Part shown: one piece after another, positions 36,101 through 61,105 of the stretch | How the letters are laid out: the number at the start of each line of letters is the position of its first letter | Numbering within the stretch: position 1 is the first letter of the stretch | From: Leifsonia williamsii | Lineage (GTDB): Bacteria > Actinomycetota > Actinomycetes > Actinomycetales > Microbacteriaceae | Reading direction: 5' to 3' | Length of the DNA: 64,000 bases | NCBI RefSeq assembly: GCF_030433685.1 | Contig: NZ_JAROCF010000001.1 | Location: 1 to 64,000, forward strand | Program-made: the position numbers and the translations under genes | The notes under the pieces: model-generated | Told to the model about the DNA's origin: nothing | What the model saw: only the letters and a program-made list of their open reading frames with translations | Databases searched by the model: none

Positions 36101-38993
36101 TCGCCTGGCCGACGGCGTCGACCGTCGTGCGGTCGGCGGTCTTCGTGACGGCGGGCTGGGCGCTCTGCGCCTGCAGATCGGTCACGGAGGACTCGGCCCC
36201 GGTGCCGACCAGGGCGTCGCCCGCCGTCGCGTTGGTGCCGACGGTGTTCTTGGCGACCTGTCCGGCGACGACCACCGGGGTGGACACCGTGTAGGTGGCG
36301 GCGAAGACGGTGCCGACGGTGACGCGACCGGCATAGGAGAACTTCAGCGCCGTGGTCTTCGACAGCGGCGACGGGGCGGTGGCGGACCAGTCGTCGACGC
36401 AGCCGGGGTTCGTCGCGAGGACCTCAGGCCGGCAGGGGTTGACGGCCTGCGAGTATGCCACCGAGAGGCCGGACGGCAGCGTGCCCACACCGGTCAGCGT
36501 GACCGGGAACTGCGAGCCGCGCGCCGTGGTCTGGGAGGCCAGCGTGTCACCGACCCGCGGGAGCAGGTCGTACATGACCGGGTTGTCGAGCGTCGCCTCG
36601 CCGCTGTTCTTGAACGACACCGTATAGGTGGCGGCGCCTCCGGCGTTGCTGACGTGCCCCGGGTTGCCGATTCCGACCGGGGACGGGTCGAGGTTGCCCT
36701 GCACGGTCTTGTCGACGGTGAAGCCGGCCCGGATGGGAGCGATCTTCAGCGGAGCGGACTCGCCGCAGTAGTTCCCGGCGGTCGGGGCGCCGTTCGCGCG
36801 CAGGTCGGTGCTGGACCACGGGTTGAGCGGTGCGGCCGAGATGCTCGCCGTCCGCGCGTTGTTCAGGTAGCACTGCGTGATCGGAGCGCCATAACCGATG
36901 GTGACGTCGCTCTGATAGGTGCCCGCGCAGCCCGCCTCGAGAGTGAGGCTGACGAAGGACGCCGACGTGATCCGGTACAGACCGCCGAGCGTCGCCGTGC
37001 CGGCGGGGATGACGTACCGCACGAGGGTGCGGCCCGTCCCGTTGTGGTCCTGGGTGAGCGTTGGGGCGATCGCGGGGGTCGTGGACGGCCGGACGCCCTG
37101 GCTGAGCGGGTTGAGCGCGTTCAGCGTGAACGTCGTCGTCGGGGCGTTCACCGCCGTCGCACCGACCGGGGCCAGGTAGTCGATGTAGATGGCCTGCGAC
37201 GGCGCGGTCGGGATCTCGATCCGGCTGCCGCTGTAGGTGTTCGTTCCGGTGAGCGTGACGTTCGCGGCGCAGGTGGTCCCGACCTGAGTGGTGTTGAGCG
37301 CCGGGAAGACGAGGGCGCCGTTGCCGGCCGGACGCGCCGTCACGAGTTCCACGCGCGACGCGGTCTGCGTCGCGACGAGCGGGGTCGACGAGCCGACGGC
37401 GTACGGCGTCGAGCTCACCGTGTTCTTGATCTCCGAGGGCGTCTGCGCAGACGGCGACGCGTAGCCGAACAGCCGGAGGGTGATGTTCGCCGCCGAGTTG
37501 GAGCCCTCTCCGGCGAAGGCCGGGATGTTCACTTGCGCCACGGCCGGTGTGGTCGGGATCACCCACCCCTTGCCGGTCGTGTACGGCACCGTGCCGGTCG
37601 AACCGTCGGTGTAGACCAGCGTGATCGCGTCGGCGGCCGTGACCGGGAAGTTGAAGGGCGTCAGAAGGGTCGGGATGTAGGCCGGGGCCGTGCAGTACGT
37701 GCCGACGGCGTTGGAGGAGTACACACCTCCGGAGAGGTTGGTCAGACACGGCATCGGGTCCTTGATGTCGAACATGACGCCGCCGTTCGTCGGACCACCG
37801 ACGCTGCCCGCGAGGATGTCGAAGTAGGTCGACTGGCCCGTGCCGTCCCAGTCGCCGGGGTAGGTGTATGGCGGGGTGGAGCCGTCGGTGAATTTGTACT
37901 GCCCGAGGTTCCCGAGCGTGCTCGTGGCGACGTTCTTGCCGACCACGGTCGCCGCGGCGATCACGGTCGAGCACTGCGACGGGTTCGTGGCCGAGCCGGG
38001 GACACCGTCCAGGTAGGTCCACGTCGACGTCGACGTGATGCAGACCTTGCTGCCGACGGCGTCCGGCACGCCGTTGGTGGCCGCGTTCCCGGTCACGACG
38101 AAGACGATCCGGCTGGTGACGCCGCAGGAGGCTCCCGTCGGGTCCGAGTACCGGATCACGCGGGTGGCGGGGTCGTACACCACCGTGCCGGGGAGGTTCG
38201 ACGAGCTCAGCGAGTACGTCTGGTAGTCGAAGCCGGCCGGAAGGGTGGCCGCGAGCTCGATGGTGGACGTGCCGAGGTCTCCCTGCGGTGCGGTGGTGTT
38301 CGCGGCGCAGTTGAACACCATCGTGTAGTTGAACGGGTTGCCCTGGATGACCTGGCCGGGGATCTGGATGGACTGCGTGATGTTGTGGGCGGCGGCCGCG
38401 GTCAACGTGACGGGCGCGGAGGTCGCGGACGCGGAGTTGGTGCTCGAGAGCGTGGCTGCGATCGACGCCGACGCGTTGTTCAGCGTCTGGAAGTCGGGCG
38501 GGGTCACCGTGAAGGTGCAGGTGGCCGTACCGGTGCTGAGGGTGCCGAGACTGAACGACACCCGGCCGGCCACCGACTTGTTCACCGCCGGACAGGTGCC
38601 CGTCTTGACCCACGAGGAGAAGTCCGTGTTCGTGCCGTTGCCGGTGACGGTCGTCGTCGGGATCGTGGCGACGGAGTCGGCGCAGCTTCCGGCGGCGTTG
38701 CTGCACGAGTACGTCAGCGTGTAGGTGACGGCCACTCCGCTGTTGACGGTCGGCGTCGTCGGCGACGTCTGGGTGACCGAGACGGTCATGTCGGCCGCCA
38801 GCGCGGGCGTCGGCGACGCGACCGCCACGAGCGCCACGGCCAGCGCGGCGACGAACCCCGCGACCCCGAGCCGCCGGCCGAGCGCACGGATCGAGAACCC
38901 CTCTCGGTCGTCTCGATGCCGCTTCTTCCGACCGCCTACGCCTTCGGCCACGTCCTGCCCCTCCACTCCCGGTGACGCGGCGGTCGTGGCCAT
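33189..38993 (-). CDS. Giant wall-anchored repeat protein with LARTG sorting motif
   Basis: This 1934-residue surface protein has a long signal peptide (basic stretch KKRHRDDR, hydrophobic core VAGFVAALAVALVAVA, cleavage near PALAAD). A large N-terminal region of about 900 residues contains mainly Thr/Ser-rich beta structure. About eight DUF11-like, Ig-like repeats of roughly 115 residues follow, each with a KTA/KS-type start, TYTFxVTNTGN and a TQAD...NTAxAxG end. The C-terminus has LARTG, a hydrophobic helix and an RRRPLN tail, the class E sortase pattern (LAxTG). It is the last gene behind a LuxR regulator and a membrane-protein gene. Likely role: adhesion or wall surface structure. Confidence 0.88.
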   Translation of the reverse strand: MATTAASPGVEGQDVAEGVGGRKKRHRDDREGFSIRALGRRLGVAGFVAALAVALVAVASPTPALAADMTVSVTQTSPTTPTVNSGVAVTYTLTYSCSNAAGSCADSVATIPTTTVTGNGTNTDFSSWVKTGTCPAVNKSVAGRVSFSLGTLSTGTATCTFTVTPPDFQTLNNASASIAATLSSTNSASATSAPVTLTAAAAHNITQSIQIPGQVIQGNPFNYTMVFNCAANTTAPQGDLGTSTIELAATLPAGFDYQTYSLSSSNLPGTVVYDPATRVIRYSDPTGASCGVTSRIVFVVTGNAATNGVPDAVGSKVCITSTSTWTYLDGVPGSATNPSQCSTVIAAATVVGKNVATSTLGNLGQYKFTDGSTPPYTYPGDWDGTGQSTYFDILAGSVGGPTNGGVMFDIKDPMPCLTNLSGGVYSSNAVGTYCTAPAYIPTLLTPFNFPVTAADAITLVYTDGSTGTVPYTTGKGWVIPTTPAVAQVNIPAFAGEGSNSAANITLRLFGYASPSAQTPSEIKNTVSSTPYAVGSSTPLVATQTASRVELVTARPAGNGALVFPALNTTQVGTTCAANVTLTGTNTYSGSRIEIPTAPSQAIYIDYLAPVGATAVNAPTTTFTLNALNPLSQGVRPSTTPAIAPTLTQDHNGTGRTLVRYVIPAGTATLGGLYRITSASFVSLTLEAGCAGTYQSDVTIGYGAPITQCYLNNARTASISAAPLNPWSSTDLRANGAPTAGNYCGESAPLKIAPIRAGFTVDKTVQGNLDPSPVGIGNPGHVSNAGGAATYTVSFKNSGEATLDNPVMYDLLPRVGDTLASQTTARGSQFPVTLTGVGTLPSGLSVAYSQAVNPCRPEVLATNPGCVDDWSATAPSPLSKTTALKFSYAGRVTVGTVFAATYTVSTPVVVAGQVAKNTVGTNATAGDALVGTGAESSVTDLQAQSAQPAVTKTADRTTVDAVGQAITYTFTVTNNTAVTLANVRVADALTDAAPSSIAPAATCSALSSPAATCSGAVTTLVPGQSATFTARYVTTQADLDHGRISDQATATADPPSGPGLSNSSGVVTVTATQNGALGLTKSATPDTVDSVGDVVTYTFTATNTGNLTLKTLGITEKSFSGSGALSSITCPPDALAPGASIDCTASYPITQADLTAGSVVNTAAASAKTPAGVTVASADSTATVTVNQVAGLAIVKSATPSSSAAYNAGQLITYSYVVSNTGNIPVTGIAVNEKTFTGTGIPSAISCPATALDPAAQFTCTSTYTLTQADVDSGSLSNTANATGNASTGPVTAEDSTATTPQEAVSKLTLTKTAGTAYVNATGETITYTFAIRNTGNVTVHDVAASETAFSGTGGTPVTTCPTTTLVPGQEVDCTATYTVTQADMNSGSIVNTAEATGVDPNDAGVTSAKSTATVTVNAAPGISVEKTADLASFTAVGTAITFSFAVTNIGNVALSDVAVTEGDFTGSAALGAIDCPTGDIAPGDVVTCSAGYETTQADLDRGSIVNTATASGRTATGAGVVSDPSTVTVAAVQTPALTLEKTVDPGSAASAGDAVTYTFHVTNTGNVTLTALAVAETGFSGTGGIAVPGCGSAPLAPGADRSCELTYRVTQADVDAGTVTNTAVATATAGVATVTSDPSTATVSIERKPALSLVKSASPSAPADFVAGQQITYTFVITNTGNVTVTDPAVQEGHFTGTGTLDAPVCASADPLAPGAQLICSTVYTVTQADIDAASVTNTAAATGVGPAGTDPLAPPSSSVTVPEPSKPSLALLKTSDTKQLAAAGQVVTYSFTVTNTGNTTATKVGVKEGAFSGRGTAPVLDCSLGTLLPGQTATCSAPYTVVAADLDGKPLTNTATAFSGTPSGSDVSSDPSTATIDDVVTAAGPGDPAGQGDPADPTGLARTGSTIAWGVGILALGALAVGTLLMLRRRPLN
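33380..36160 (-). repeat. Eight consecutive DUF11-like domain repeats
   Basis: Internal repeats of about 345 bp encode Ig-like domains with shared markers (VTNTGN, TQADxxxGSxxNTA). Seven are close to full consensus and the first is divergent. Identity is at protein rather than DNA level, so recent slippage is not obvious. Confidence 0.85.
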
Positions 38994-41347: not shown

Positions 41348-41469
41348 CCGCGCGCGCGTTCGGGTGATTCACATCTTGGCACGCATGAGAAAACGGAAGC
41401 AATGACGCCCCTCCTGCCCGGACCCTCCTGGTGTTCGCTACGCTCCGCTCAAGGAGCGAGGGGGATGCG

Positions 41470-42543
41470 ATGACGACCGAGGACGACACGACTCCGGCAC
41501 GCAGGACCCGCACCTGGCGCACGCTGATCGCGGTCGCCGCCGTGCTCATCCTGGTCGCGGGAGGGATGATCGCGGGCGTCGTCGGGACGCTTCTGCTCGC
41601 CGCGCCCCGCGGCAGCTGCGACGCGGCGGCGGTCGCCGACCGGGTGCTGCCGACGATCGTGACCGTGCAGGTGCGCGGCGACGGCGGGTCGGGCAACGGC
41701 AGCGGGCAGATCATCGACGGCGACGGGCACGTCCTCACCAACAACCATGTGATCGCGCCCGGGTCGACACCGGTGGCGCTCGTGGTGCGGCTGAGCGACG
41801 GCGAGGAGCTGCCCGCAACGCTCGTCGGTCGTGACCCCAAGACCGACCTCGCGGTGCTGAAGGTGACGAGCGAGGAGTCGCTCCCCGTCATCCGGACCGG
41901 CGACTCCGGCTCGCTCTCGGTCGGCCAGCCGGTCGTCGCGCTCGGGGCGCCGCTGGGACTGTCCAGCACGGTCACCGCCGGAATCGTCAGCGCGCTCGGC
42001 CGCACGGTTCCGGTGCCGAGCAACGACGCCACGAACGCGGTGCTCGCCGGCGCCATCCAGACCGACGCCTCCATCAACCCGGGCAACTCGGGCGGCGCCC
42101 TCGTGGACTGCGACGGCCGGCTCGTCGGCGTGAACACCGCCATCGCGACCGTTCCGAGCGGCGGCGGCCAGTCGAGCAGTGGCAGCGTCGGCATCGGCTT
42201 CGCCGTCCCGGTCGCTCAGGCGCTGCCGATCGCGCGCGAGCTCATCGAGCACGGGAGGGTCGACCACCCGAGCGCCGGTGTCTCGGTCACGCCGATCCCG
42301 CCGTCGGTGGCCGCCGCCTTCGGCATCACCGACGGGCTCTTCGTGCAGTCGGTCGCGTCCGGCGGCCCGGCGGACGAGGCCGGCATCCGGGCGGGCGACA
42401 TCCTGACGAGCGTGAACGGGCGCCCCGCGACCAGCGTCGACGCGCTGACCGCGGTGCAGGTGACGAGCAGTGCCGGCGACACGGTCGACGTGGAGTACCT
42501 GCGCGGCGGGGCGAAGCACACGGCGACGGTGACGCTGCGCTGA
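41470..42543 (+). CDS. HtrA/DegP-like serine protease with PDZ domain
   Basis: This 357-residue membrane-anchored protease has one N-terminal helix (about residues 18-40) and a trypsin-like domain with catalytic His93 (TNNHVI), Asp126 (KTDLAVL) and Ser207 (GNSGGAL). A C-terminal PDZ domain contains GPADEAGIRAGDILTSVNG. It acts outside the membrane on misfolded or regulatory proteins. The start is ATG 41470, with GGAGCGAGGGGG as SD. It is divergent from the S-component-like gene and independent of the next gene. Confidence 0.92.
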   Translation: MTTEDDTTPARRTRTWRTLIAVAAVLILVAGGMIAGVVGTLLLAAPRGSCDAAAVADRVLPTIVTVQVRGDGGSGNGSGQIIDGDGHVLTNNHVIAPGSTPVALVVRLSDGEELPATLVGRDPKTDLAVLKVTSEESLPVIRTGDSGSLSVGQPVVALGAPLGLSSTVTAGIVSALGRTVPVPSNDATNAVLAGAIQTDASINPGNSGGALVDCDGRLVGVNTAIATVPSGGGQSSSGSVGIGFAVPVAQALPIARELIEHGRVDHPSAGVSVTPIPPSVAAAFGITDGLFVQSVASGGPADEAGIRAGDILTSVNGRPATSVDALTAVQVTSSAGDTVDVEYLRGGAKHTATVTLR

Positions 42544-46460: not shown

Positions 46461-46546
46461 TCGTCTTCGAGCTGATCGCCGCCGCCCTCGCCGTGGCCGC
46501 CCTGTTCTATCTGGTGGTCGCCCTCGTGAAGCCGGAGAAGTTCTGA
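46457..46546 (+). CDS. kdpF: Potassium-transporting ATPase subunit KdpF
   Basis: This 29-residue single-helix peptide, [20 protein letters not shown] then VALVKPEKF, has the standard KdpF length and the conserved KPE-F C-terminus. KdpF stabilises the KdpFABC complex through lipid-like packing near KdpA. GTG start overlaps the upstream peptide's stop, and its stop overlaps the kdpA ATG (TGATG). GGAGAAG within its last codons forms the kdpA SD. Confidence 0.93.
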
Positions 46547-48219
46547 TGACCTGGTTGTTCGCGATCGCGGCCCTGCTCACGGTCGCCCTCGTCCTCGCGG
46601 TGCTGTACCGCCCGCTCGGCGACTACATGGCCTGGATCTACACGTCGCGGAAGGACTGGCGCGTCGAGCGCGGCATCTACCGCCTCATCGGCGTCGACCC
46701 CCGCTCCGAGCAGACCTGGCAGGCCTACCTGCGCAGCGTGCTCGTCTTCTCCGCCGTCGGCCTGCTGCTCCTCTACGGGCTGCAGCGGCTGCAGCAGTGG
46801 CTGCCGTACTCGCTCGGCCTCCCGGCCCCGTCGGAGGACCTCTCGTTCAACACGGCCGCCTCCTTCGTCGGCAACACCAACTGGCAGTCGTACTCGCCGG
46901 AGCAGACGCTCGGCTACACCGTGCAGTTCGCCGGGCTCGCCGTGCAGAACTTCGTCTCGGCGGCCGTCGGCCTGGCGGTCGCCATCGCCCTGGTGCGCGG
47001 GTTCGCCTCCCGCCGGTCCGGCACCATCGGCAACTTCTGGGTCGACCTGATCCGCGGCTCCCTGCGCCTGCTGCTGCCGATCGCGGTGATCGGCGCGATC
47101 GTGCTCCTCGCGGGCGGGGTCATCCAGAACCTCAACGGGTTCACCGACGTGACGACGCTGAGCGGCGCCACGCAGTCGATCCCCGGCGGCCCGGTCGCGT
47201 CGCAGGAGGCGATCAAGCTGCTCGGCACCAACGGAGGCGGCTTCTTCAACGCCAACTCGGCGCACCCGTTCGAGAACCCCACCGCGTGGACCAACGTGGT
47301 GGAGGTCCTGCTCATGCTGGTCATCCCGTTCGCCCTCCCGCGCACCTTCGGCCGCATGGTCGGCAGCAACAAGCAGGGGTACGCGATCCTCAGCGTGATG
47401 GGCATCCTCTACGTCGCCTCGTTCGCGATCCTCACCGCCCTCGAGACCGCCGGTCGCGGCACCGCCCCCGAGCTGGCCGGCGCGGCGCTGGAGGGCAAGG
47501 AGGACCGCTTCGGCATCCTCGGCTCGACGCTGTTCTCGACCACCAGCACCGGAACCTCCACGGGCGCGGTCAACGCGATGCACGACTCGTTCACGGCCCT
47601 CGGCGGGATGCTGCCGATGCTGAACATGATGCTCGGCGAAGTCTCGCCCGGCGGCGTCGGCTCGGGCCTGTACGCGATCCTCGTGCTCGCCGTGATCGCC
47701 GTCTTCATCGCCGGGCTGCTGATCGGCCGCACCCCGGAGTACCTGGGCAAGAGGATCGGCCCGCGCGAGATCAAGCTGGCCGGCCTCTACATCCTGGTGA
47801 TGCCCGCGACGGTGCTGATCGGGACGGCGCTCAGCTTCGTCCTCCCCGGCGTCCGCGAGAGCGTGGAGAAGACCTCCATCCTCAACCCGGGCGTGCACGG
47901 GATGTCGGAGGTGCTCTACGCCTTCACCTCGGCGGCCAACAACAACGGCTCGGCGTTCGCCGGCCTGACCGCGAACACCCCGTGGATGAACACCGCGCTC
48001 GGCGTGGCCATCCTCGTCGGCCGGTTCGTGCCGATCGTGTTCGTGCTCGCGCTGGCCGGATCGCTCGCGGCGCAGGACAAGGTGCCCGCCAACGCGGGCA
48101 CGCTGCCCACGCACCGCCCGCAGTTCGTCGGCCTGCTCACCACGGTCACCGTCCTCGTGACCGCCCTCACCTTCTTCCCCGTTCTCACGCTGGGTCCCCT
48201 GGCGGAAGGGCTGCAGTAA
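46546..48219 (+). CDS. kdpA: Potassium-transporting ATPase subunit A
   Basis: This 557-residue channel-like subunit has about ten helices and binds and translocates potassium in the KdpFABC pump. The selectivity-filter-like segments include [34 protein letters not shown] and the [11 protein letters not shown] loop, all typical of KdpA. The start overlaps the kdpF stop. The complete operon kdpFABC is followed by kdpDE, the usual order in actinobacteria. Confidence 0.97.
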
Positions 48220-48221
48220 CG

Positions 48222-50393
48222 ATGTCCATCACCACCACCGCAACGACACCCGCGCCCGCGGGCCACGAGCCGCACGGCCCCGCGCCGCGGACACCCGCCG
48301 GCGCGTTCTCCTGGAGCCAGATCGTGCAGGCGCTCCCCGGCACGTTCCGCAAGCTCGACCCGCGCCTGCAGTGGCGCAACCCGGTCATGTTCGTGGTCTG
48401 GGTCGGCGCCGTGCTCACCACCGCACTGGCCGTGGCCGAGCCGTTCCTCGGCGGCCCGGCGGAGTCCGGCGGCACCGTCGTGCCCTGGTCGTTCACCGGG
48501 GCCATCGCGATCTGGCTCTGGCTGACGGTCCTGTTCGCCAACCTGGCCGAGGCCGTGGCCGAGGGGCGCGGCAAGGCGCAGGCCGACACGCTCCGCAAGA
48601 CGCGCACGAGCACGACCGCGCACCGGGTCGCCGACTATGACGCCTCCGTCGATCCGTCCGCCGAGCGGGCCGTGATGGAGGACGTCTCGTCCGCCGACCT
48701 GCGCCTCGGCGACACGGTCGTCGTGGCCGCCGGCGACCTGATCCCCGGCGACGGCGACATCGTCTGGGGGATCGCCTCGGTCGACGAGTCGGCCATCACC
48801 GGCGAGTCGGCTCCGGTCATCCGGGAGTCAGGAGGCGACCGCAGCGCCGTCACCGGCGGCACCCGCGTGCTCTCGGACCGCATCGTCGTGCGCATCACGT
48901 CGAAGCCGGGCGAGACCTTCGTCGACCGGATGATCGCGCTCGTCGAGGGCGCCGCCCGGCAGAAGACGCCCAACGAGATCGCGCTGTCGATCCTCCTCGC
49001 CGCCCTGACCATCGTCTTCGTGGTGGTGGCGCTCACCCTGAACCCGATCGCGTCGTACGCCGCGAAGCCGGTGAGCATCGCGGTACTGGTCGCCCTGCTG
49101 GTGTGCCTGATCCCGACGACCATCGGCGCCCTCCTGAGCGCCATCGGCATCGCCGGCATGGACCGGCTGGTGCAGCGCAACGTGCTGGCGATGTCCGGCC
49201 GGGCCGTGGAGGCCGCGGGCGACGTCACCACGCTGCTGCTCGACAAGACCGGCACGATCACCTACGGCAACCGCCGGGCGAGCGCCTTCGTGCGGCTCGG
49301 CGGGGTGCAGGAGCAGGAGCTGATCCGCGCCGCCGCGCTGTCGTCGCTCGCCGACCCGACGCCGGAGGGCACCTCGATCGTGGAGCTCGCCGTGCGCGAG
49401 GGCGTCGACGTCGGGACCACCGCCCCCGGCGAGATCGTGCCCTTCACCGCCCAGACCCGCATGTCGGGGCTCGACCTGCCGGACGGCACGCAGATCCGCA
49501 AGGGCGCCGGCTCGGCGGTCATCGCCTGGCTGGAGGCCGACGGCACGCGCCTCGCCTCGAGCCTGGTGGCGGAGCTGGAGGAGCACACCGAGCACATCTC
49601 GCAGAGCGGCGGCACTCCGCTCGTCGTCGCCAGGAAGAGCGCCGACGGCACGGGCGAGGTCCTCGGCGTCGTCCACCTCAAGGACGTCGTCAAGGAGGGG
49701 CTCGCCGAGCGCTTCGCCGAGCTGCGCGCCATGGGCATCCGCACCGTGATGATCACCGGCGACAACCCGCTCACCGCGCAGGCCATCGCGAAGGAGGCCG
49801 GCGTCGACGACTTCCTCGCGGAGGCCACCCCCGAGCAGAAGCTCGCCTACATCCGCACGGAGCAGGAGGGCGGCAACCTCGTCGCGATGACCGGTGACGG
49901 CACGAACGACGCCCCCGCGCTCGCGCAGGCGGACGTCGGCGTGGCGATGAACTCGGGCACCTCGGCGGCGAAGGAGGCCGGCAACATGGTCGACCTCGAC
50001 TCCGACCCGACGAAGCTCATCGACATCGTCCGGATCGGCAAGCAGCTGCTGATCACCCGCGGAGCGCTCACCACCTTCTCGATCGCGAACGACGTGGCGA
50101 AGTACTTCGCCATCATCCCGGCCATGTTCATGGGGGTCTTCCCCGGGCTGTCGGTGCTCAACATCATGGGCCTGCACTCCCCCGCCTCCGCGGTGCTGTC
50201 GGCCGTGATCTTCAACGCGATCGTGATCGTGCTGCTCGTCCCGCTCGCGCTGCGCGGCGTCCGCTACCGGGCCGCCAACGCCTCCGCCACCCTCAGCCGC
50301 AACCTCCTGGTCTACGGCGTCGGCGGCATCATCGCCCCCTTCATCGGGATCTGGCTGATCGACCTGGTCGTCCGCCTCATCCCCGGATTCTGA
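48222..50393 (+). CDS. kdpB: Potassium-transporting ATPase subunit B
   Basis: This 723-residue P-type ATPase subunit provides ATP hydrolysis for the pump. It shows ITGES (about residues 192-196), phosphorylation Asp341 in DKTGT, and [10 protein letters not shown] (about residue 560). The start is ATG 48222, 2 bases after the kdpA stop, with an Ala/Pro-rich N-terminal extension; the upstream open frame is not protein-like. Seven hydrophobic helices are visible. It closely follows the conventional KdpB architecture. Confidence 0.97.
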
Positions 50394-50411
50394 GCTCAGG
50401 AGCCGTACGCA

Positions 50412-51026
50412 ATGAACACCACAACCCGCTCCACCGGCCGCCTCACCTGGGTCGCGATCCGCTCGATGGTCCTGCTGACCCTCGTGCTGGGCGTCGGCTA
50501 CATGCTCGTGATCACGGCCGTCGGCCAGCTCGCGCTGCCCTGGCAGGCGAACGGCTCGACCGTGAAGGACGAGGCCGGCCAGGTGGTCGGCTCCGCCCTG
50601 ATCGGGCAGTCCTTCTCCGACGGGGACGGCAAGCCGCTGCCGCAGTTCTTCCAGCCGCGCCCGTCCGCCGCCGGCGACGGGTACGACGGGAAGGCCTCCT
50701 CCGGCTCCAACCTCGGCCCCGAGAACCCGGACCTGATCGCGGCGATCCGCGAGCGCAAGGCGGCCGTCGCCTCCTTCAACGGCGTCGCCGAGAGCGCGGT
50801 CCCCGCGGACGCGGTGACCGCCTCCGGCTCGGGCCTCGACCCCCACATCAGCCCCGCGTACGCCGAGCTGCAGGTGCGCCGGGTCGCCGAGGCCCGCGAT
50901 CTCTCCGAGGCGTCGGTGCGCACGCTCGTCGCCGAGCACACCCAGGGTCGCGACGTCGGGTACCTCGGCGAGCCGACCGTGAACGTGCTGCAGCTCAACC
51001 TCGCGCTCGAGAAGCTGAAGGGCTGA
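50412..51026 (+). CDS. kdpC: Potassium-transporting ATPase subunit C
   Basis: This 204-residue single-pass subunit has an N-terminal helix (MVLLTLVLGVGYMLVITAVGQ) and a soluble extracytoplasmic domain with GSALIGQSF, the FFQPRPSAAGDGYDG block and SGSGLDPHISP, all conserved in KdpC. It stabilises the A-B interface. It starts 18 bases after kdpB, with AGGAG before the ATG, and ends two bases before kdpD. Confidence 0.96.
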   Translation: MNTTTRSTGRLTWVAIRSMVLLTLVLGVGYMLVITAVGQLALPWQANGSTVKDEAGQVVGSALIGQSFSDGDGKPLPQFFQPRPSAAGDGYDGKASSGSNLGPENPDLIAAIRERKAAVASFNGVAESAVPADAVTASGSGLDPHISPAYAELQVRRVAEARDLSEASVRTLVAEHTQGRDVGYLGEPTVNVLQLNLALEKLKG

Positions 51027-51028
51027 CC

Positions 51029-53563
51029 ATGACCCACCGCGGGCGGCTCCGGGTGCTGCTCGGCGCCGCCCCGGGCGTCGGCAAGACCTACACGATGCTC
51101 GAGGAGGGCAAGAGGCTGGCCGGCGAGGGCACGGACGTCGTCGTCGCGATCGTGGAGACCCACGGTCGCGCGGCGACGGCCGCCATGACGGCCGGGCTCG
51201 AGATCGTGCCGCGGCGGTCGCTCTCGCACCGGGACGTGGAGCTCGACGAGCTCGACCTCGACGCCGTGCTGCGGCGAGCGCCGACGATCGCGCTGGTCGA
51301 CGAGCTCGCCCACACGAACGCCCCCGGCTCGCGCAACCAGAAGCGCTGGCGGGACGTGGAGGAGCTGCTCGCCGCGGGCATCCACGTCATATCGACCGTC
51401 AACATCCAGCACATCGAGTCGCTGAACGACGTGGTCGAGCAGATCACGGGGGTCCCGCAGCGCGAGACGATCCCCGACGAGGTGCTCCGGGCCGCCGACC
51501 AGGTCGAGGTGATCGACCTGGCCCCGCAGGCGCTGCGCGATCGCCTCTCGGGCGGTTTCGTCTATCCGGCCGAACGGATCGACGCCGCGCTCTCCAACTA
51601 CTTCCGCCTCGGCAACCTCACCGCGCTGCGCGAGCTGGCACTGCTCTGGCTCGCCGACGAGGTCGACCAGGCCCTGCGCGACTACCGCACCGAGCACGGC
51701 ATCGACAGCACCTGGGAGGCGCGCGAGCGCGTCGTCGTCACCCTGACCGGCGGGCAGGAGGGCGAGACCCTGCTGCGCCGCGGCGCCCGGATCGCCGCCC
51801 GCTCCTCCGGCGGTGAGCTGCTCGCCGTGCACGTCACGAGCCAGGACGGCCTGCGCGCCATCGACCCGGCCGCCCTCGCCCAGCAGCGCTCGCTGGTGGA
51901 GCAGCTCGGCGGCACCTTCCACCAGGTGGTCGGGACCGATATCCCGGAGGCCCTGGTCGCCTTCGCCCGCTCGGTCAACGCCACCCAGCTCGTCATCGGC
52001 GTCTCGCGGCGCAGCCGGCTCGCCGCCCTCCTCACCGGTCCGGGGATCGGCGCGACCGTCATCCGGGAGGCCGGCAACATCGACGTGCACATCGTCAACC
52101 ACGACGCCGCGGGCGGCCGGTTCGCGCTCCCGCGCATCGGCGGGGCGCTGACCCTGCGACGCCGGCTGAGCGGCTTCCTGCTGGCGCTGCTCGCCGGCCC
52201 GCTGCTCACGTGGCTGCTGGTGACCTTCCGCTCGGCCGACTCGATCACCAGCGACGTGCTCGCCTACCAGCTGCTCGTCGTGGTCGTCGCCCTGGTCGGC
52301 GGCATCTGGCCCGCCCTGTTCGCGGCCGTGCTCTCGGGGCTGACCCTCGACTTCTTCTTCGTGGAGCCGTACAACACCATCACGATCAGCCGGCCCCTCC
52401 ACCTCGTCGCCATCGGCCTCTACGTCGTCAACGCGGTCCTCGTCAGCGTCATCGTCGACACGTCCGCCCGCAAGACCCGCGCGGCCCAGCGCTCGGCGGC
52501 GGAGGCGGAACTGCTGCAGACGATCGCGGGCAGCGTGCTCCGCGGGCAGGGCGCCGTGCAGGCCCTGGTCGAGCGGACCAGGGAGGCGTTCGCGCTGCCC
52601 GGCGTACGGCTCGTCCGCGGCGACACCGTGCTCGCGACGAGCGGCGAGGGGCTCCCGGACGACCGGCACACCGCCCTCCCCGTCGGCGAGCATGCCGTGC
52701 TGGAGCTGCACGGCCCGGACCTGCCCGCCTCGGAGCGGAGGCTGCTCGCCGTCATCGTCGCGCAGCTCCGCGCGGCGCTCGAGCACAGCGACCTGCAGGA
52801 GGCCGCGGACGAGGCCCTGCCGCTCGCCGCCTCCGACCGGATCAGGACCGCCCTGCTCTCGGCTCTCAGCCACGACCTGCGACGCCCACTAGCGGCCGCG
52901 GCAGCCGCCGTCGGCGGGCTGCGCACCGCCGGCGCCCACCTCGACGAGCGCGACCGGGAGGAGCTGCTCGCCACCGCGCACGAGAGCCTCCGCACCCTCA
53001 CCGGGCTCGTCACCGACCTGCTCGACGTCAGCCGGCTGCAGGCCGGCGTCCTCGCCGTCTCGCCCGTCCCCGTCGACGTCGCCGACACCATCGCGCCCGC
53101 CCTCGACGAGCTCGCCCTCGGGCCGGATGCGGTCGAGCTGCACGTCGGCGACGACCTCCCTCCCGCGCTCGCCGACCCCGGCCTCCTGCAGCGCGTCGTC
53201 GTCAACCTGCTCGCGAACGCCGTGCGGCACAGTCCGGAGGGCCGGCCGGTGCGGCTCAGCGCCAGCACCTTCGCGGGCAGAGTGGAGTTGCGGGTCGTCG
53301 ACCACGGCCCCGGCATCCCGCCCGAGCGCCGCGACGACGTGTTCGTGCCGTTCCAGCGGCTCGGCGACACCGACAACACGACCGGCCTCGGCCTCGGGCT
53401 CGCGCTCTCCAAGGGGTTCGTGGAGGGGATGAGCGGCACGCTCTCGCCCGAGGACACCCCCGGCGGCGGGCTCACCATGGTGGTGTCGCTGCCGGCGGCG
53501 CCCGCTGAACGCGCCTCCACCCCCACCCCCGCCGCCACCACCGACCGGGAGGACGCCCGATGA
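51029..53563 (+). CDS. kdpD: Osmosensitive potassium sensor kinase KdpD
   Basis: This 844-residue sensor has the KdpD N-terminal domain with Walker A GAAPGVGKTYT, a USP-like domain (ERVVVTLTGGQEGETLLRRG), four closely spaced helices (about residues 375-480), a GAF-like segment and a kinase core. The H box is SALSHDLRRPLAA with His615; Arg replaces the usual Thr of HDLRTPL. ATP-binding boxes NAVRHSP, DHGPGIP and GLGLGLALSKG are intact. It senses potassium limitation and phosphorylates KdpE, whose start it overlaps by ATGA. Confidence 0.96.
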   Translation: MTHRGRLRVLLGAAPGVGKTYTMLEEGKRLAGEGTDVVVAIVETHGRAATAAMTAGLEIVPRRSLSHRDVELDELDLDAVLRRAPTIALVDELAHTNAPGSRNQKRWRDVEELLAAGIHVISTVNIQHIESLNDVVEQITGVPQRETIPDEVLRAADQVEVIDLAPQALRDRLSGGFVYPAERIDAALSNYFRLGNLTALRELALLWLADEVDQALRDYRTEHGIDSTWEARERVVVTLTGGQEGETLLRRGARIAARSSGGELLAVHVTSQDGLRAIDPAALAQQRSLVEQLGGTFHQVVGTDIPEALVAFARSVNATQLVIGVSRRSRLAALLTGPGIGATVIREAGNIDVHIVNHDAAGGRFALPRIGGALTLRRRLSGFLLALLAGPLLTWLLVTFRSADSITSDVLAYQLLVVVVALVGGIWPALFAAVLSGLTLDFFFVEPYNTITISRPLHLVAIGLYVVNAVLVSVIVDTSARKTRAAQRSAAEAELLQTIAGSVLRGQGAVQALVERTREAFALPGVRLVRGDTVLATSGEGLPDDRHTALPVGEHAVLELHGPDLPASERRLLAVIVAQLRAALEHSDLQEAADEALPLAASDRIRTALLSALSHDLRRPLAAAAAAVGGLRTAGAHLDERDREELLATAHESLRTLTGLVTDLLDVSRLQAGVLAVSPVPVDVADTIAPALDELALGPDAVELHVGDDLPPALADPGLLQRVVVNLLANAVRHSPEGRPVRLSASTFAGRVELRVVDHGPGIPPERRDDVFVPFQRLGDTDNTTGLGLGLALSKGFVEGMSGTLSPEDTPGGGLTMVVSLPAAPAERASTPTPAATTDREDAR

Positions 53564-54264
53564 AGGTCCTGATCGCTGACGACGACCCCCAGCTGCTGCG
53601 CGCCCTGCGCATCACGCTCGGGGCGAAGGGCTACGACATCCTTCACGCCGCCGACGGCGCCGAGGCGGTCTCGGTGGCGGTCGACCACCACCCCGACCTC
53701 TACCTGCTCGACCTCGGGATGCCGCAGCTCGACGGCATCCAGGTCATCCACGCGATCCGCGGCTGGTCGGACGCGCCCATCCTCGTCGTCTCCGGCCGCA
53801 CGAGCGCCGGCGACAAGGTCGACGCGCTCGACGCCGGAGCCGACGACTACATGACCAAGCCGTTCGCCATCGAGGAGCTGTTCGCCCGCATCCGGGCGCT
53901 CACCCGCCGCACGACGCACCACGACGTCGACACCGTGGTCGCGCTGGGCGACGTGACGATCGACCTCGGCGCGCGCGCCGTCACCCGCACGACGCCGGAG
54001 GGGTCGACCCACGTCCGCCTGACGCCCACCGAGTGGCAGGTGCTGGAGGTGCTCCTCCGCAACCCCGGCCGCCTGGTGAGCCGCCAGACCATGCTGACCA
54101 CGATCTGGGGCTCGGAGCACGTCAGCGACTCGGGCTACCTGCGGCTCTACGTCTCACAGCTGCGGAAGAAGCTGGAGGCCGACCCGGCCCACCCGCGCCA
54201 CCTCCTCACCGAGCCGGGCATGGGCTACCGGCTGGAGCTGGACGCCGAGGAGCCCGCGGGCTAG
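53560..54264 (+). CDS. kdpE: KDP operon response regulator KdpE
   Basis: This 234-residue OmpR-family regulator has receiver acidic residues (IADDDPQ), phospho-acceptor Asp51 in LLDLGMP, the KPF motif and a C-terminal winged helix with LVSRQTMLTTIWG. It activates kdpFABC when phosphorylated, perhaps at the direct repeats 46233-46272. The ATG overlaps the kdpD stop. Its stop overlaps by four bases the convergent gene at 54261. Confidence 0.95.
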   Translation: MKVLIADDDPQLLRALRITLGAKGYDILHAADGAEAVSVAVDHHPDLYLLDLGMPQLDGIQVIHAIRGWSDAPILVVSGRTSAGDKVDALDAGADDYMTKPFAIEELFARIRALTRRTTHHDVDTVVALGDVTIDLGARAVTRTTPEGSTHVRLTPTEWQVLEVLLRNPGRLVSRQTMLTTIWGSEHVSDSGYLRLYVSQLRKKLEADPAHPRHLLTEPGMGYRLELDAEEPAG

Positions 54265-54836: not shown

Positions 54837-54975
54837 ACGCGTCTGCGCGATCTCCTGACGCTTCCCCTACGCCACGCGGGCCGACCGTAAGGGTTCCGTG
54901 TTTTTCCGGGCGGCCGCCGCATGGGTCTCGTCAGGGCCGCCCCTCCGCCGCCTTCGCTCGCGTAGACCGGAGCGC

Positions 54976-55485
54976 ATGACCCTGACACGCATCCTCCCCA
55001 CCCTGCGCCGCACCCTCCCCGAGCCCCTCCACCCGGCGCACTGGCCAGCCCACACCCGCGCGACCGTCGACGACGTGGTGGTGGCCGGCGTCTCGATGAT
55101 CCGGCTGGCCGCGTGGTGCGGAACGCCGTGCCTGCACACCGACGAGACGCTCTCGGTGATCGTCACCCGCGTCCAGCACCTCGAGCGCCGCGCCGACGGC
55201 TCCCTCGCGCTGTGGTTCGACGCGGACGTGTCGACGGTCGACGCCGACATGGAGCAGGCGCGGCTCGTCGGCCGCCTCACCGTCGCGCCGGCCCGGCGGG
55301 TGCTGGTCGGGGGTGGGGAGGTCGAGCTGCCCGGCGACCTCGTCGTCGGCGACCTGGTGGTGATTCCGGCGCGGTCGATGGTGACGCTGCACGAAGTGGA
55401 CCCGCGGCGGCGGGGGGCGGCGGGTGCGGCGTCGGAGGGAGGCCCGGCGTCGGCGGACGAGTGGAGCGGGCGCTGCGGGCGGTGA
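54976..55485 (+). CDS. Hypothetical protein
   Basis: A 169-residue product from ATG 54976 with GGAG 3 bases upstream. Features are CGTPCLHTDETLSVIVTRVQ, with two cysteines close together, a middle part that looks beta-rich, and a low-complexity Gly/Ala C-terminus. The N-terminus is basic and Pro-rich (RRTLPEPLHPAHWPAH). No family recognised. It converges on jetC, with 43 bases between ends. It is not a JetD-type protein: it is too short and lacks that family's toprim-like motifs. Confidence 0.55.
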   Translation: MTLTRILPTLRRTLPEPLHPAHWPAHTRATVDDVVVAGVSMIRLAAWCGTPCLHTDETLSVIVTRVQHLERRADGSLALWFDADVSTVDADMEQARLVGRLTVAPARRVLVGGGEVELPGDLVVGDLVVIPARSMVTLHEVDPRRRGAAGAASEGGPASADEWSGRCGR

Positions 55486-55528
55486 GCCCGACGCGTCCGG
55501 TCCTCCCGCCCCGCCGCCGCTCGATGCC

Positions 55529-58500
55529 CTAGGCCACCGCGCCCTCGTCCACCCCCACCTTCGCCTTCGCCCACGACCGCCCGCGCGTGTCCTTCAGGAT
55601 CGTGTACTCCACGTCCACGTGCGGTTCGATCGCGCTGTACTTGTCGTTCGGGGCGCCGATGACGAGCTGGAAGCCGAGGCCGCGCCAGGCGCCGATGGCG
55701 CGCTTGGTGAAGTGGGCGTCCGCCTTGATCAGCGCCTCGTCCATGAAGACCGGGGCGTAGCGGGGGCGCTCGGCGCCGGCGTCGCCGAGCTGGTAGCGCA
55801 GGGCCGCTCCGACGATGAAGGCGATCAGCTCCTGGGACTCGCCGCCCGACTTCTCGCCGATGTGGTCGTAGAGGGCCACGTGCTGCTTCGTCGTCGCCTC
55901 CACCCGCTCGGCGCTGACCCGGACGTGGTTGCGCACGTCCACCAGCTCGGCGAAGTCGGGGGCGGAGCGGCGGAGGTGGCCGATCAGGCGGGACATGCGG
56001 CGGTAGGCCTGCTCGCGCTCCTCCTCCGTCGACGCGGCCTCGATGAGGGCGCGCACGTCGCGCAGCTCGCGGCGGAACCGCTTGCGGGCGTCCGACTGGT
56101 TCTCGCGCGTGGCGATCTGCAGGCGGTGGCCGTCGTCGTAGAACGGCAGGTCCTGCATGATCCGGTTGATCGGCTCGATGCGCTCCCTGATCTCGCGCAG
56201 CGACCGCGAAAGGGTCGAGTCGAGGTTGGTGAGGTCATTGCCCGAGAGCTTCAGGAGGCTGCCCCTCCACTCCTCCTCCAGCTCGTGGAGGCCGCTGGTC
56301 TCGAGCGCGACGAGCATGCGCTCGAAGTCGTCCACCGACGTGTCGGGGTCGGCCAGCAGGTTCGGGTTCTCCCAGCGGTCGAGGAAGGTTCGCATCACGC
56401 GCGCCATGCTCTCTCGGAGGTCCTCGTGGGCGTCCCGCGCAGCCCGGCTGTCCTCCGCCAAGCGCTGGGCGGCCATCCCGAGCGCCGCGTCGAAGCGGGT
56501 GAGGAGGGCGGAGGCGCCGAGCGACTCCCGCCCGCCGTCCAGGGTGAAGCGCTCGTCGAGGTACGCGGCCTGGTCGGCGGTCAGCGCGCGGCCGGCGTCC
56601 TCGGCGTCGTCGATGATCGACTGCGCCGCGTCGACGTCGTCGGAGATGCCGGCCCACTGCTGCTCCAGGCGGTCGTGCTCGCCCTGGTCGCGGCCGACCT
56701 GGTTCTGCAGGTCGGCGGCCTTCGCGCGCAGCTCGGCGATGCGCTCCTTCAGGCGGCCGATCTCCGGGTTGCTGCCGGTGACCTCCGCCTCCAGCGCCGC
56801 CCAGCGGTCGCGGTCGGCCTCGGCGGCGTCGACGTCGACCTGCTCCCAGGTCAGCTCGGCGACCCTCCCGGACGCGGCCCGGCGGTCCTCGAAGGAGGCG
56901 TACGCGGTGTCGGCGTCGGCCAGCGACGACTGCGCCGCCGCGAGGCGTGCGCGCGCCCGGTCGAGCTGCTCGTCGAGCTCGCGCAGCCGCCGTCCGCTGG
57001 AGAAGCCGAGCACGTTGAGCCGGCCGTGTCCGCCGTGCGCGCCGCGGCTGCCCTGCGAGATCTGCCCGGCGATGGTGACGGCCATGCGGTGGAGGGACAG
57101 GTCGGCCGGGTCGTCGACGCAGACGAAGCCGAACCGCTCCTCCAGCCGCTGCCGCAGCCAGCCGGTGAACGGCGACTCCCGGTAGTCGAGGCGCCCGGGG
57201 AGGGTCAGCGGGTCGCTTGCGCCTCCCGCCTCCAGGCCCGCCTGTACGCCCTCGTAGCGCAGCCGCTCCGGCGTGCGCACGGCATCGACGGCGGCGCGGA
57301 ACCGGCTGAGGTGGGCGGCATCGATCAGCAGGGTGGTGGCGAACCCGCCGAGGGCGAGGTTGAACGCCTCGCGCCACGGCTCGAACTCGGTCCGCACCTC
57401 CACCAGCTCGCCGACGAACGGCAGCTCGTCCGGCGACAGCCCGGCGGCCTCGGCGAGCAGCAGCCGCGACTCGTGCAGCCGGCGCGGGATGCTGCCCGTG
57501 TGCAGCTCGGCGCTGCGGCGCTCGCCCTCCAGCTCGGCGACCTCGGCCTCCGCCGCCCGCTGCGCGGAAACGGCCTCGGTGTACGTCGCCAGCACGGCGC
57601 GGCGGGTGTCGGCGTCGGCCCGGCCGGCGGTCGCCCCGGCGATCAGGCCGTCGAAGTCGGCGCGGCTGCCGACCTCGGCGCCGAGCACCTGAAGGTCGGC
57701 GTCCAGCCGCTCGCGGTTCTGCCGCACGGTCGTCAGGCGCGCCTCGGCGGCACGCAGCTCGCGCTGAGCGGTCTCGAGCCGGTCGCCGCCGGAGGCGCGC
57801 AGCACGTCGGCGAGCCCCTCGCGCTCGACCTCCGCGGCCTCGGCGAGGGCCGCCTTCTCGCGCAGGGCCGCGTCGAGGGCGCGCGTGCGGTCGCGGACCT
57901 CGGACTCGACGGCGCGCAGCAGCTCCAGTCGGCGCTGCGCACGCCACAGCGACACCAGCGACGACGGGTCGGCCGGCACGCCCAGCTCGTCGATCAGCCG
58001 CATGCGCTCGGCCGCCGACGCCATCCGCTCGCGCAGGCCGCGGATCGGTTCCAGCGCGGCGACCTGCTGCTTGGCCTCCAGCATCCGCAGGCGGGTGCCC
58101 TCGAGCTCGTCGAAGTGCGCGACGACGGCGTCGGCCGTCGTCATCGTCTCCGGCTCCTCCAGCACGAGCCGCTTGTAGAGGTCGTCGACCGTGGTGATCT
58201 GCTGGCCCGCCTGGATGCGCGCGAGCAGGCTCATGGCCTTGGCGCCCGCCCCCGCCGCGCCGATGCCGAGCACCGCGTGCAGCCGGGCCGAGAACTCGCG
58301 GTCGGTGCCGATCGGGCCGAGGCCGGCGGCGCGCAGGGACGCGTCGGTGAAGCGCTGCGTCGCCGCCGCCTGCAGCGCAGCGAGGTCGAGCGGGCCGTCG
58401 ACGGTCGCCCGCACCCGCACGGTGTCCTCGAGGATGCGCGCGGCGGCCGGGATGTACCAGGCGCGGACCGCGGTGAACCGCGACCCGTCGTGGTCGAGCC

Positions 58501-58891
58501 AGGTCATCGCCACGGCGGTCCAGGTGTCCTCGCCGTCGCCGCGGAGCACCCGCACCTTCGTGCCCTCCTCGGTGCGGGTCTCGTCGAGCTTTCCGCGGCC
58601 GTAGGAGAGGATGTTGCGCTGCTCGTCACCGCGCGGGCGCCCGGTAACTCCCCCGTTGGAGGCGCCGTTGAAGGGGGTCGTGTGCGGCATCATGAGCGCG
58701 ATGTACGCGTCCATCAGGGTCGACTTGCCCGACCCGGAGCCGCCGCAGAGCAGGGTGGCTCCGGGCGAGAAGCGCACGCGGTGGGCGCCGTCGTAGCCGC
58801 CCCAGTTCACCAGCTGGAGGTCCTCGGCGAGCCACTGCTGGCCCCGGGAGGCGGCGGGGATCAGCCCGAAGAGGGTGTCGAGCATCGTCAC
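55529..58891 (-). CDS. jetC: JetC/MksB-type SMC-like ATPase (Wadjet)
   Basis: This SMC-like ATPase of about 1120 residues has Walker [11 protein letters not shown] (about residues 49-58) and long coiled coils on both sides of a globular hinge (about residues 500-600). Near the C-terminus come the ABC signature SGGESQ and Walker [13 protein letters not shown]. In Wadjet and MksB complexes it dimerises, holds DNA in a loop and extrudes it. The start is GTG 58891, overlapping the jetB stop, or ATG 58885. It is the last of jetA-jetB-jetC; the nuclease gene jetD, normally next, is missing (next gene is convergent). Confidence 0.88.
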
Positions 58892-59640
58892 AGGGCAGCG
58901 TCCTCCTCGGCGGGGGCGGTCTCGGCGTCGGCGGTCTCGGCGTCGGCGGTCTCGGCGCCGGTCTCGTCGTCCTCGTCCTGCACGGTCTGGTCGCGCAGCC
59001 ACTCGCGCAGCTCGAGCAGGCGCTCGGCGCTCAGCACCACCTCCACGAGCGGGCTGATCCGGTAGCGGCCGGCCGACTCCTCGGTGACGATGCCGTCGCG
59101 CGCCAGCCGCTCCAGCGCCTTGCGCACCGCCTTCTGCCGCCGGGAGGTGCCGCCGTCGTGATCGGCGAAGTAGCTGAGCACGGTCTGCTCGATGTCCTCG
59201 ACGTCGACCCGCACCGACGGCTCGCCCGCCGCCGACTCGCGCTGGTACACCGTGCGCAGGTGGACGAGGACCAGCGTCTCCGACCGGGTGTACGGCACAT
59301 CGCGGAGCAGGATCGGCACCTCCACCTCGTCGGAGCGCACCTGCTGCTTGTACGCGAGCCCGCGGCCGTGGTCGATCACCAGGCGCACGTAGAGGTCGTT
59401 GAGCCGCGACTCGATCACCTGCTGGTGGTCGAGCAGCACCGTCCATTCCTGCCGGTTGCGCTCGGCTGCGAGGAAGCGGCGCTGGAGAAGGTGCACCAGC
59501 ACGCGCCGTACCTCCGGGTCGAGCACGCCGCGGTCGCCGGGGAACAGCTCGTCGGGGTCGTCCTCCATCGCGACGGGCTCGATGAAGGGGGCGTCGGCGC
59601 CCACCTCATCCGGCTCCTTCAGCGTCACGGTGTCAGTCAT
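58888..59640 (-). CDS. jetB: JetB/MksE-type winged-helix subunit (DUF4194)
   Basis: This 250-residue protein matches the DUF4194/MukE-like class, the kite subunit bridging kleisin and ATPase. Visible features are [20 protein letters not shown] near the N-terminus and a winged-helix segment [19 protein letters not shown]. The C-terminus is an acidic repeat, [18 protein letters not shown]. It overlaps jetA by 8 bases and jetC by 4, showing a tightly coupled operon. The acidic tail is not part of the family core. Confidence 0.85.
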
Positions 59641-61105
59641 GGTCGTGCTCCCTCATGGTGCGGGCGGTCACCGCGCCGAACGCGAACCGCCTGGACGTGC
59701 CGTCGGGTCGCAGCGCCTCGACGACGGAGACGCGTTCGCTCTCCGTCATGCCGTTGCGGTGCGCGATCTCCAGCAGGCCGAGCAGGTCGACCGGCCGCCT
59801 CGTCTCGTCGTCGGCGCCCTCGAACGCGTCTCCCAGGTCGAACTCGTCGCCGAGCCCTGCGACGTACGCCTCCAGCTCGGCGTACCGCGGGCCGCCCCAG
59901 GCGCGGGTGTCGTCGCCGACGAACTCGACGTCGGCGGGGTCGTCGGTCAGCGGCGCCGGCCGCCCCGGCGCGCGCAGGTCGCTCACCGACTGCCGCAGGT
60001 GGCGGATCGCGGCGTTCGGGAGGCTGCGCACCGGCGTCACCGGCGCGTCCGGCGACGACGTGCTGGTCCAGGCCTGCAACCCGGCGATCACATCCCGCAG
60101 CAGCTCGTCCACCTGCCGATCGCGCACCGGGTCGTGCGTCTTTACCTGCCCGGTGATCACGTGGGAGGCGCGGCGCTGCGCGGTCAGCACCTCCTGCACC
60201 CCCAGCTCGATGCGCCGGGCGACCGCCTGCAGCTCGTCGCGCTGGGCGGCGTCCATGAGGCGCGAGAACGGCAGGGCGAGCAGGTCGTGCAACTGCTCGG
60301 TGAGCGCGTCGATGCGTTCCGGGTCGCCGATCAGGCGCAGCGCGCCCGCGAAGGCCCGACCCTCGGCCGTGGCCTGCATGACGTGCTGGCCGCGCTCCAG
60401 GTACTCGCGCAGCACCTCGCCGGTCGGCCGCACGTCCCGGCGCAGGTCGGCGACCACGTCCCGCTGCATCGCCTTGATCGACTCGGCGACGCGGGTGAAG
60501 TCGGCGGGCAGCTCGCGGGCGAGGTGGAGGATGTTCTCGGCCTCCTCCAGCAGCTCCTCGTCGTCGGCGGGCTCGGCGAAGCCGTCCTCCAGGCGCGCGA
60601 TCTCGGCGTCGAGAGCCTCGCGCTCCTGGCGCAGCCGGGCGAGCCGGCGGGCGGGGTCGACCTCGGCGTCGCCCGCGAGGCGCTCGACGGCCTCCAGCAG
60701 TGTGCGCACGCGCGAGTTGGAGACGCGGGCCCGGCCGCCGCCGGTGCGCCCGGTGATCTCGAGGGCGCCGACGGCGTGCGCCGAGAGCCGGTACACCTCG
60801 GTGTCGCCCTCGATCTGCGGCAGCAGCCAGCCCGCCCGCACCCACTCGCGGCAGATGTCGCGGGCGGAGCCGGAGGGCAGCCTCCGCTCGTCCTCGTCGT
60901 ACCCGGCCGCGCGCAGCTCGTCGAGCACCTCGCCCAGCTCGGCGTGCGCGTCCGCGACCGCGACGGCCGGCCGGTCGGCGGTGAAGAGGAGGGAGAGCAC
61001 GGCGACCACGAACGGCGCGGACCGCCGGTGCAGCAGGTGCAGGGTCGGGGTCTTGAACGCGTTCACGGAGCGCACGTACGCCGCCTCCGCGCGCGTATTC
61101 GTCAT
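59633..61105 (-). CDS. jetA: JetA/MksF-type kleisin (DUF3375)
   Basis: This 490-residue protein of the DUF3375 family is the MukF-like kleisin of Wadjet. The N-terminal winged helix contains [20 protein letters not shown], and a helical middle segment ([21 protein letters not shown]) plus a C-terminal winged helix follow. The start is ATG 61105; TATCGT (61117-61112) lies 6 bases upstream with no SD, so the transcript may be leaderless. It is first in jetABC. Confidence 0.86.

Follow-up and report, generated by a model that had tools for sequence, protein, structure and literature searches.

Genes and motifs of the jetABC operon

The window, by which we mean the whole 64,000-nucleotide stretch of Leifsonia williamsii DNA analysed here (NZ_JAROCF010000001.1, positions 1 to 64,000), contains an operon for the structural maintenance of chromosomes (SMC) complex of a type I Wadjet system, with the genes in the order jetA-jetB-jetC. 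The start of jetB overlaps the end of jetA by 8 bases, and jetB and jetC overlap by 4 bases, given the GTG start of jetC (Table 1). According to PADLOC, the best models for the three products were JetA1 (PDLC00464, E 9.3e-215), JetB1 (PDLC00473, E 7.6e-113) and JetC1 (PDLC00517, E 0). Pfam assigned JetA to DUF3375 (E 4.1e-110), JetB to DUF4194 (E 2e-39) and MksE (E 4.7e-9), and JetC to AAA_29 and SbcC_Walker_B, which are SbcC/Rad50-type ATPase models. The three proteins also matched chains of solved complexes by sequence, namely, 8q72_E for JetA (E 4.3e-19), 8as8_C for JetB (E 1.2e-7) and 8dk2_C for JetC (E 1.8e-35). The Walker A, signature and Walker B motifs of JetC were all readable. An intact, overlapping type I Wadjet jetABC core was thereby confirmed: a preliminary description of this DNA, made from its letters, had proposed a tightly coupled jetABC operon with all three ATPase motifs, and its coordinates, 55529-61105, were correct. 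The genome has one JetA. It also encodes the ScpA of an ordinary condensin, at C1:1874603-1875265, and JetABC is therefore not the sole condensin of this bacterium.

Table 1. Features of the jetABC operon and of the facing gene in the window
Feature	Position	Strand	Remarks
jetA	61105-59633	minus	490 aa; DUF3375; kleisin-type subunit ("kleisin" after PMC10586767)
jetB	59640-58888	minus	250 aa; DUF4194; KITE-type subunit
jetC	58891-55529	minus	SMC-family ATPase; 1120 aa from GTG; alternative ATG at 58885
JetC Walker A, GGSGSGKST	58718..58744	minus	read in sequence
JetC signature motif, KSGGESQ	55832..55852	minus	read in sequence
JetC Walker B, PVFMDEAL	55730..55753	minus	read in sequence
Space separating the jetC stop from the convergent gene's end	55486..55528		43 bases; place of jetD in relatives
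Convergent gene	54898..55485	+	195 aa; outside the system; without Pfam or PADLOC match

JetD is absent from the operon and from the genome

The nuclease subunit JetD was said in the preliminary description to be encoded normally right after jetC and to be missing here. Among JetD-bearing relatives, the distance from the JetC match to the start of JetD is indeed no more than about 350 bp for 32 of 33 JetD genes, and 2.6 kb for the remaining one (L190). In the window, jetC ends at 55529 and its plus-strand neighbour ends at 55485, so that there is no room for jetD between them. This neighbour is convergent and, as judged by Pfam and PADLOC, unrelated, as had been noted. With 11 JetD proteins of relatives as queries, tblastn found nothing in the window at E 1e-3, and 34 JetD queries, of which one (L179) was perhaps out of frame, gave no JetD remnant in the 2.5 kb after jetC at E 0.01.

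The preliminary description had also suggested a profile search of the whole genome. In the assembly (3,889,869 bases, or 3.89 Mb, in 2 contigs; 99.99% complete), JetD_C (PF09983) and DUF3322 (PF11795) had 0 matches, and the Corynebacterium glutamicum control was positive with both models. At the sensitivity of these two Pfam models, this excludes a JetD encoded elsewhere in this genome, which had been raised as an alternative.

JetD-less loci are common among relatives

We then looked at how often JetA occurs without JetD. In the genus, JetA was found in 13 of 28 genomes and JetD_C in 2 (G008 and G010), both JetA positive, leaving 11 of the 13 JetA-positive genomes without JetD_C. The order sample comprised 396 genomes, with JetA in 171, JetD_C in 89, both in 85 and JetA alone in 86; among the 150 JetA places listed, a capped selection, JetD_C lay within 9 kb in 71 and not in 79. 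JetA was present in 10 of 296 genomes of the phylum sample, three of them (G000, G459 and G471) without JetD_C; G000, G081 and G032 among these ten also belong to the order sample. A search for related JetC loci over named genomes, in which the best 80 of 152 confirmed loci were used and up to 10 kb per side was examined, gave JetD in 11. All of these JetDs, bar a broken copy at locus L002, occurred among the 17 most distant loci (57-59% identity to the window JetC). Locus L010, in which tblastn gave a weak JetD-like match (29.6% over 125 aa, E 0.005) some 1.1 kb past jetC, was counted as JetD-less. Some genomes, e.g., G213 and G385, carry JetD away from JetA. The JetD-less state is common and recurrent, which goes beyond what the preliminary description had claimed.

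The JetD-less state points to recurrent loss of jetD

A tree of 163 JetC proteins (FastTree, several long branches) contained 116 rows without JetD, 33 with JetD, 1 with a broken JetD and 13 whose state is unknown because the sequence available beyond jetC was shorter than 2.5 kb; that is, 116 of the 150 rows of known state had no JetD. JetD presence changed at least 13 times on this tree, and the well-supported branches alone force 13 changes. The clade of the window has 37 rows (34 without JetD, 1 broken and 2 of unknown state) and is nested in a clade of 74 rows (64 without JetD, 2 with JetD, 1 broken and 7 of unknown state).

The JetC tree alone cannot tell gain from loss, and three further observations bear on the direction of change. 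First, in the part of the JetD tree corresponding to the window, the JetDs form one clade (99/99) with L084 as its sister (100/99), which matches the JetC tree; the internal order of that clade is not resolved, and outside it the two trees partly disagree, as only the JetD tree places L091 with L189 and L190. Second, a JetD pseudogene follows an intact JetABC in Microbacterium helvum (L002:13357-14273). Its first 224 residues end at a stop, its last 70 are in another frame, and about 77 model positions are missing between them; the missing stretch belongs to the C-terminal half, which we take to be the place of the Toprim domain. Third, L091 and L095, from two genus-mates of the window, have JetC proteins that are 95% identical, and they differ by a 1,158-base segment with jetD in L091 where L095 has 30 bases, a difference that we infer to be a loss. 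Because of the tree agreement in the window's part, the broken JetD and the L091/L095 segment, the comparison points to recurrent loss of JetD from jetABC loci, and loss accounts for at least part of the 13 state changes.

JetD is reported to contact an IFDR motif at the N terminus of JetB (PMC10586767). A motif, F[IV]..ME, stands before DUF4194 in JetB proteins of the window type, in 80 of 81 JetD-less and 14 of 14 JetD-bearing cases, and was found in 1 of 19 JetD-bearing and 10 of 34 JetD-less JetB proteins of other types. We dropped it as a JetD-docking motif, since it does not track JetD; it also differs from the IFDR motif.

Selection on the core after loss of JetD

The ratio of nonsynonymous to synonymous substitution rates (dN/dS) was estimated for 290 close, non-independent pairs of loci, with L002 and the rows of unknown state counted in the JetD-less group. 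The median for JetD-less pairs was 0.104 for JetA (n=219), 0.084 for JetB (n=219) and 0.122 for JetC (n=233). The corresponding values for the 34 JetD-bearing pairs were 0.095, 0.107 and 0.182, with 0.230 for JetD itself, and in 23 mixed pairs JetC gave 0.18-0.20. In ten hand-picked sister contrasts, the ratio of JetC tip depth without JetD to that with JetD was 0.42-1.12 in nine. The Walker A pattern was present in 162 of 163 JetC sequences, the exception (L061) being cut by a contig end, and both the signature SGG[EQ] and a lax Walker B pattern were present in all 163. Judged from these substitution patterns, the JetD-less core is under purifying selection and is not decaying.

Two kinds of genomic setting

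Some JetD-less sets look domesticated, either by their place next to leuS or by being scattered. Twelve JetD-less jetABC loci from five genera of one family (L148, L151, L152, L155, L156, L158, L159, L161, L162, L165, L168 and L171) adjoin the end of the leucyl-tRNA synthetase gene, leuS; this neighbour was confirmed in all three of the 12 that were checked, and three of the 12 genomes (G129, G213 and G392) have JetD elsewhere. In 11 genomes of the window's genus, a different JetABC type occupies a conserved site, and 10 of these 11 lack JetD. In a third set, family f12 (L205-L224), 15 of 20 loci have jetB at a distance of 1.7-11 kb after jetA, jetC is found within the examined 20 kb in 4, and neither gene is found in 5. 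JetC was nevertheless intact and 75-95% identical in 18/18 queried genomes of this family, its gene being 14-77 kb away from jetA or on a separate contig. Sixteen of these 18 genomes had no JetD_C match; G282 had a weak fragment, and G385 had one far away. The scattered jetA, jetB and jetC genes of f12 are likely a domesticated JetABC.

The window subclade has a different setting. At 60-80% JetC identity, its loci shared a neighbour family within about 5 kb in 45 of 1993 pairs, similar to a JetD-rich group (4 of 136 pairs, all identities). Sharing was seen in 66/66 pairs of the leuS group, which was defined by sharing, and in 55/55 pairs at the genus site. The stable position expected of a housekeeping condensin was thus found in other JetD-less groups, whose choice had partly been guided by position, and not in the window subclade. 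According to JetC profile scores, the window JetABC type is also unique among the 13 JetA-bearing genomes of the genus. Because the sites differ and the core is the only one of its type in the genus, we read the JetD-less core of the window as an accessory cassette that was probably transferred. With JetC as the query, tblastn matched 14 plasmid records and 1 phage record, none of them reaching 60% identity; there was no close plasmid or phage carrier in the collections searched.

The surroundings of the operon showed no evident defence island. The neighbours scanned in the window were KdpA, LysE and AsnC families, DUF6611, a trypsin-like protease and a permease, the scans having taken in part of the predicted genes (6, 8, 9 and 9 proteins, in overlapping sets). 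Weak PADLOC matches to a partial GajB-type helicase (10194-12512), to a reverse-transcriptase-associated protease model on the trypsin-like protein (41431-42543) and to CARF/Csa3-type models on an AsnC helix-turn-helix look like shared domains and were set aside. A substitute nuclease next door was also considered and rejected, as the widest neighbour clusters mark local lineages (leuS and the genus site) and not a partner gene. Relatives of the convergent gene occur in 14 of the 28 genus genomes, its own included. In nine genus-mate loci examined, they stood beside a DUF6611 gene in four, and none adjoined jetC or jetA within 3.5 kb.

Elsewhere in the window, 33189-38993 encodes a probable large surface protein of 1934 aa, which contains eight DUF7507 stretches as well as DUF11 repeats, and 46546-54264 holds potassium-transport kdp genes, with KdpA identified by Pfam; the genes after kdpA are presumably further kdp genes. 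The other contig of the genome, C2 (42,351 bases; L225, L227 and L228), is phage-like: PHROGs recognised tape measure, tail and endolysin proteins among 3 of 5 proteins tested. As read from the sequence, this contig begins with the 3' end of a tRNA and contains an open reading frame resembling a tyrosine integrase at L228:5495-6811, so that C2 may be an excised temperate phage.

Possible functions of JetABC without JetD

In known systems, JetABC works as a DNA-extruding dimeric SMC motor, and completed extrusion of a small circle activates JetD (PMC12647877, PMC10586767). The explanation that we favour, with moderate confidence, is that loss of the JetD nuclease has left a type I Wadjet core that still works, as an MksBEF-like loop extruder without a nuclease, which handles DNA and leaves it uncut. 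Its proteins would form the known complex: JetA, JetB and JetC would assemble into an ATP-driven SMC complex, load on DNA and extrude loops. Without JetD, the motor would load, extrude and let go, and the cycle would end without cleavage. JetABC would then hold or reorganise DNA, of the chromosome or of other replicons, as an accessory condensin beside Smc-ScpAB. MksBEF of Pseudomonas aeruginosa provides a precedent for such a core without JetD (PMC10586767). The preliminary description had put forward both a nuclease-free complex and an MksFEB-like role. The former gains support from the absence of JetD in the genome; the latter is the best-supported reading, resting by comparison on purifying selection and on relatives that look domesticated.

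Several points weigh against this explanation. The JetD-bearing complex of C. glutamicum is reported to limit plasmids and to have no role in chromosome organisation (PMC7083940), so that a chromosome role would have to be gained. The window subclade seldom shares neighbours, as described above. JetA dN/dS is slightly higher without JetD (0.104 versus 0.095), and the members of JetD-less pairs are on average more closely related, which itself influences dN/dS. Finally, one of the ten sister contrasts was faster without JetD, with a ratio of 1.68.

The lack of a fixed address and the C. glutamicum report make a nuclease-free restraint of foreign circles a serious rival, although we consider it to be distinctly less probable. 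In this case, JetABC would fully extrude small circular DNA and restrain it by compaction, blocked expression or poor segregation. The cassette-like, differing sites of the window subclade, the single occurrence of its type among the JetA-bearing genomes of the genus and the purifying selection on the core are all consistent with such defence, and the silencing of viral circles by Smc5/6 offers a likeness (PMC10586767). However, all four subunits are reported to be needed for suppression of plasmid transformation in Bacillus subtilis (PMC10586767), and the scanned neighbours are for transport, regulation and metabolism rather than defence. More speculatively, and with somewhat greater doubt, window-type JetABC might be a self-standing, horizontally moving form of nuclease-independent immunity or replicon control, which senses circles by extrusion and silences them uncut, a counterpart of Smc5/6 restriction reached by repeated loss of JetD.

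It is unlikely that a distant gene of the same genome supplies JetABC with a different nuclease. In principle such a partner could act in trans, since some genomes, such as G213 and G385, have JetD away from JetA, but the genome of the window has no JetD. The recruitment of another nuclease, which the preliminary description had also considered, found no backing either, as no neighbour family recurs beside jetABC across the window subclade; other nuclease families were not searched genome-wide. A decaying remnant, in which jetD was lost first and jetABC is to follow, is very improbable: the patchy distribution and the JetD of L002, caught in decay, would suit it, but the JetD-less dN/dS of 0.08-0.12, the ATPase motifs intact in all but one JetC, the lack of a general acceleration after loss and the intact JetC of the f12 genomes, mostly without JetD, speak against it. 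An artefact, through an assembly gap or a divergent jetD missed by the models, is hardly credible, for although Pfam models can miss remote relatives, the assembly is nearly complete in two contigs with another gene directly after the operon, JetD is recovered by these models from C. glutamicum and from 89 of the 396 order genomes, and a clean 1.16-kb segment with jetD distinguishes L091 from its sister locus L095.

As to meaning, a core kept for a noncutting job would make Wadjet motors useful beyond plasmid cleavage, and annotation tools that score JetABC alone as Wadjet would then call defence where there is perhaps none. How SMC complexes pass between defence and chromosome care is described as an open question (PMC10586767). 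The sister species with L091 and L095, with and without jetD beside 95%-identical JetC proteins, make this question testable.

Comparison with known systems

Loss of JetD is already in print as an idea for P. aeruginosa (PMC10586767). We found no survey of JetD-less type I loci in the open-licence literature, preprints being outside its scope. What is new here is the recurrence of the JetD-less state, the selection result and the two lifestyles without JetD. A similar published entry is that of Paenarthrobacter lasiusi S21, for which a Wadjet consisting of only JetA, JetB and JetC is listed alongside a complete type I system (PMC11719660, Table 6); the missing JetD passes without comment in the part of that article available to us.

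The operon shares with type I Wadjet, or JetABCD (also MksBEFG or EptABCD), the JetA1, JetB1 and JetC1 models, the gene order, the overlaps and the matches to solved chains, and it has a DUF3375 JetA, a DUF4194 JetB and a motif-complete JetC. It has no JetD nuclease (DUF3322/DUF2220, Toprim), the effector that defines the defence activity, either in the locus or in the genome. We therefore file it as a JetABC derivative and not as a Wadjet system. Smc-ScpAB has the general SMC, kleisin and KITE architecture in common with it (PMC10512200), but is a separate system, with its own ScpA in this genome. MksBEF of P. aeruginosa is, like the operon of the window, a JetABC-like SMC core without JetD, and the window indeed holds an MksB/MksE/MksF-type core without MksG. 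This likeness is one of description and not of protein comparison; the operon of the window belongs to the type I JetABC of Actinomycetes, and within that group most of the losses observed fall on separate branches.

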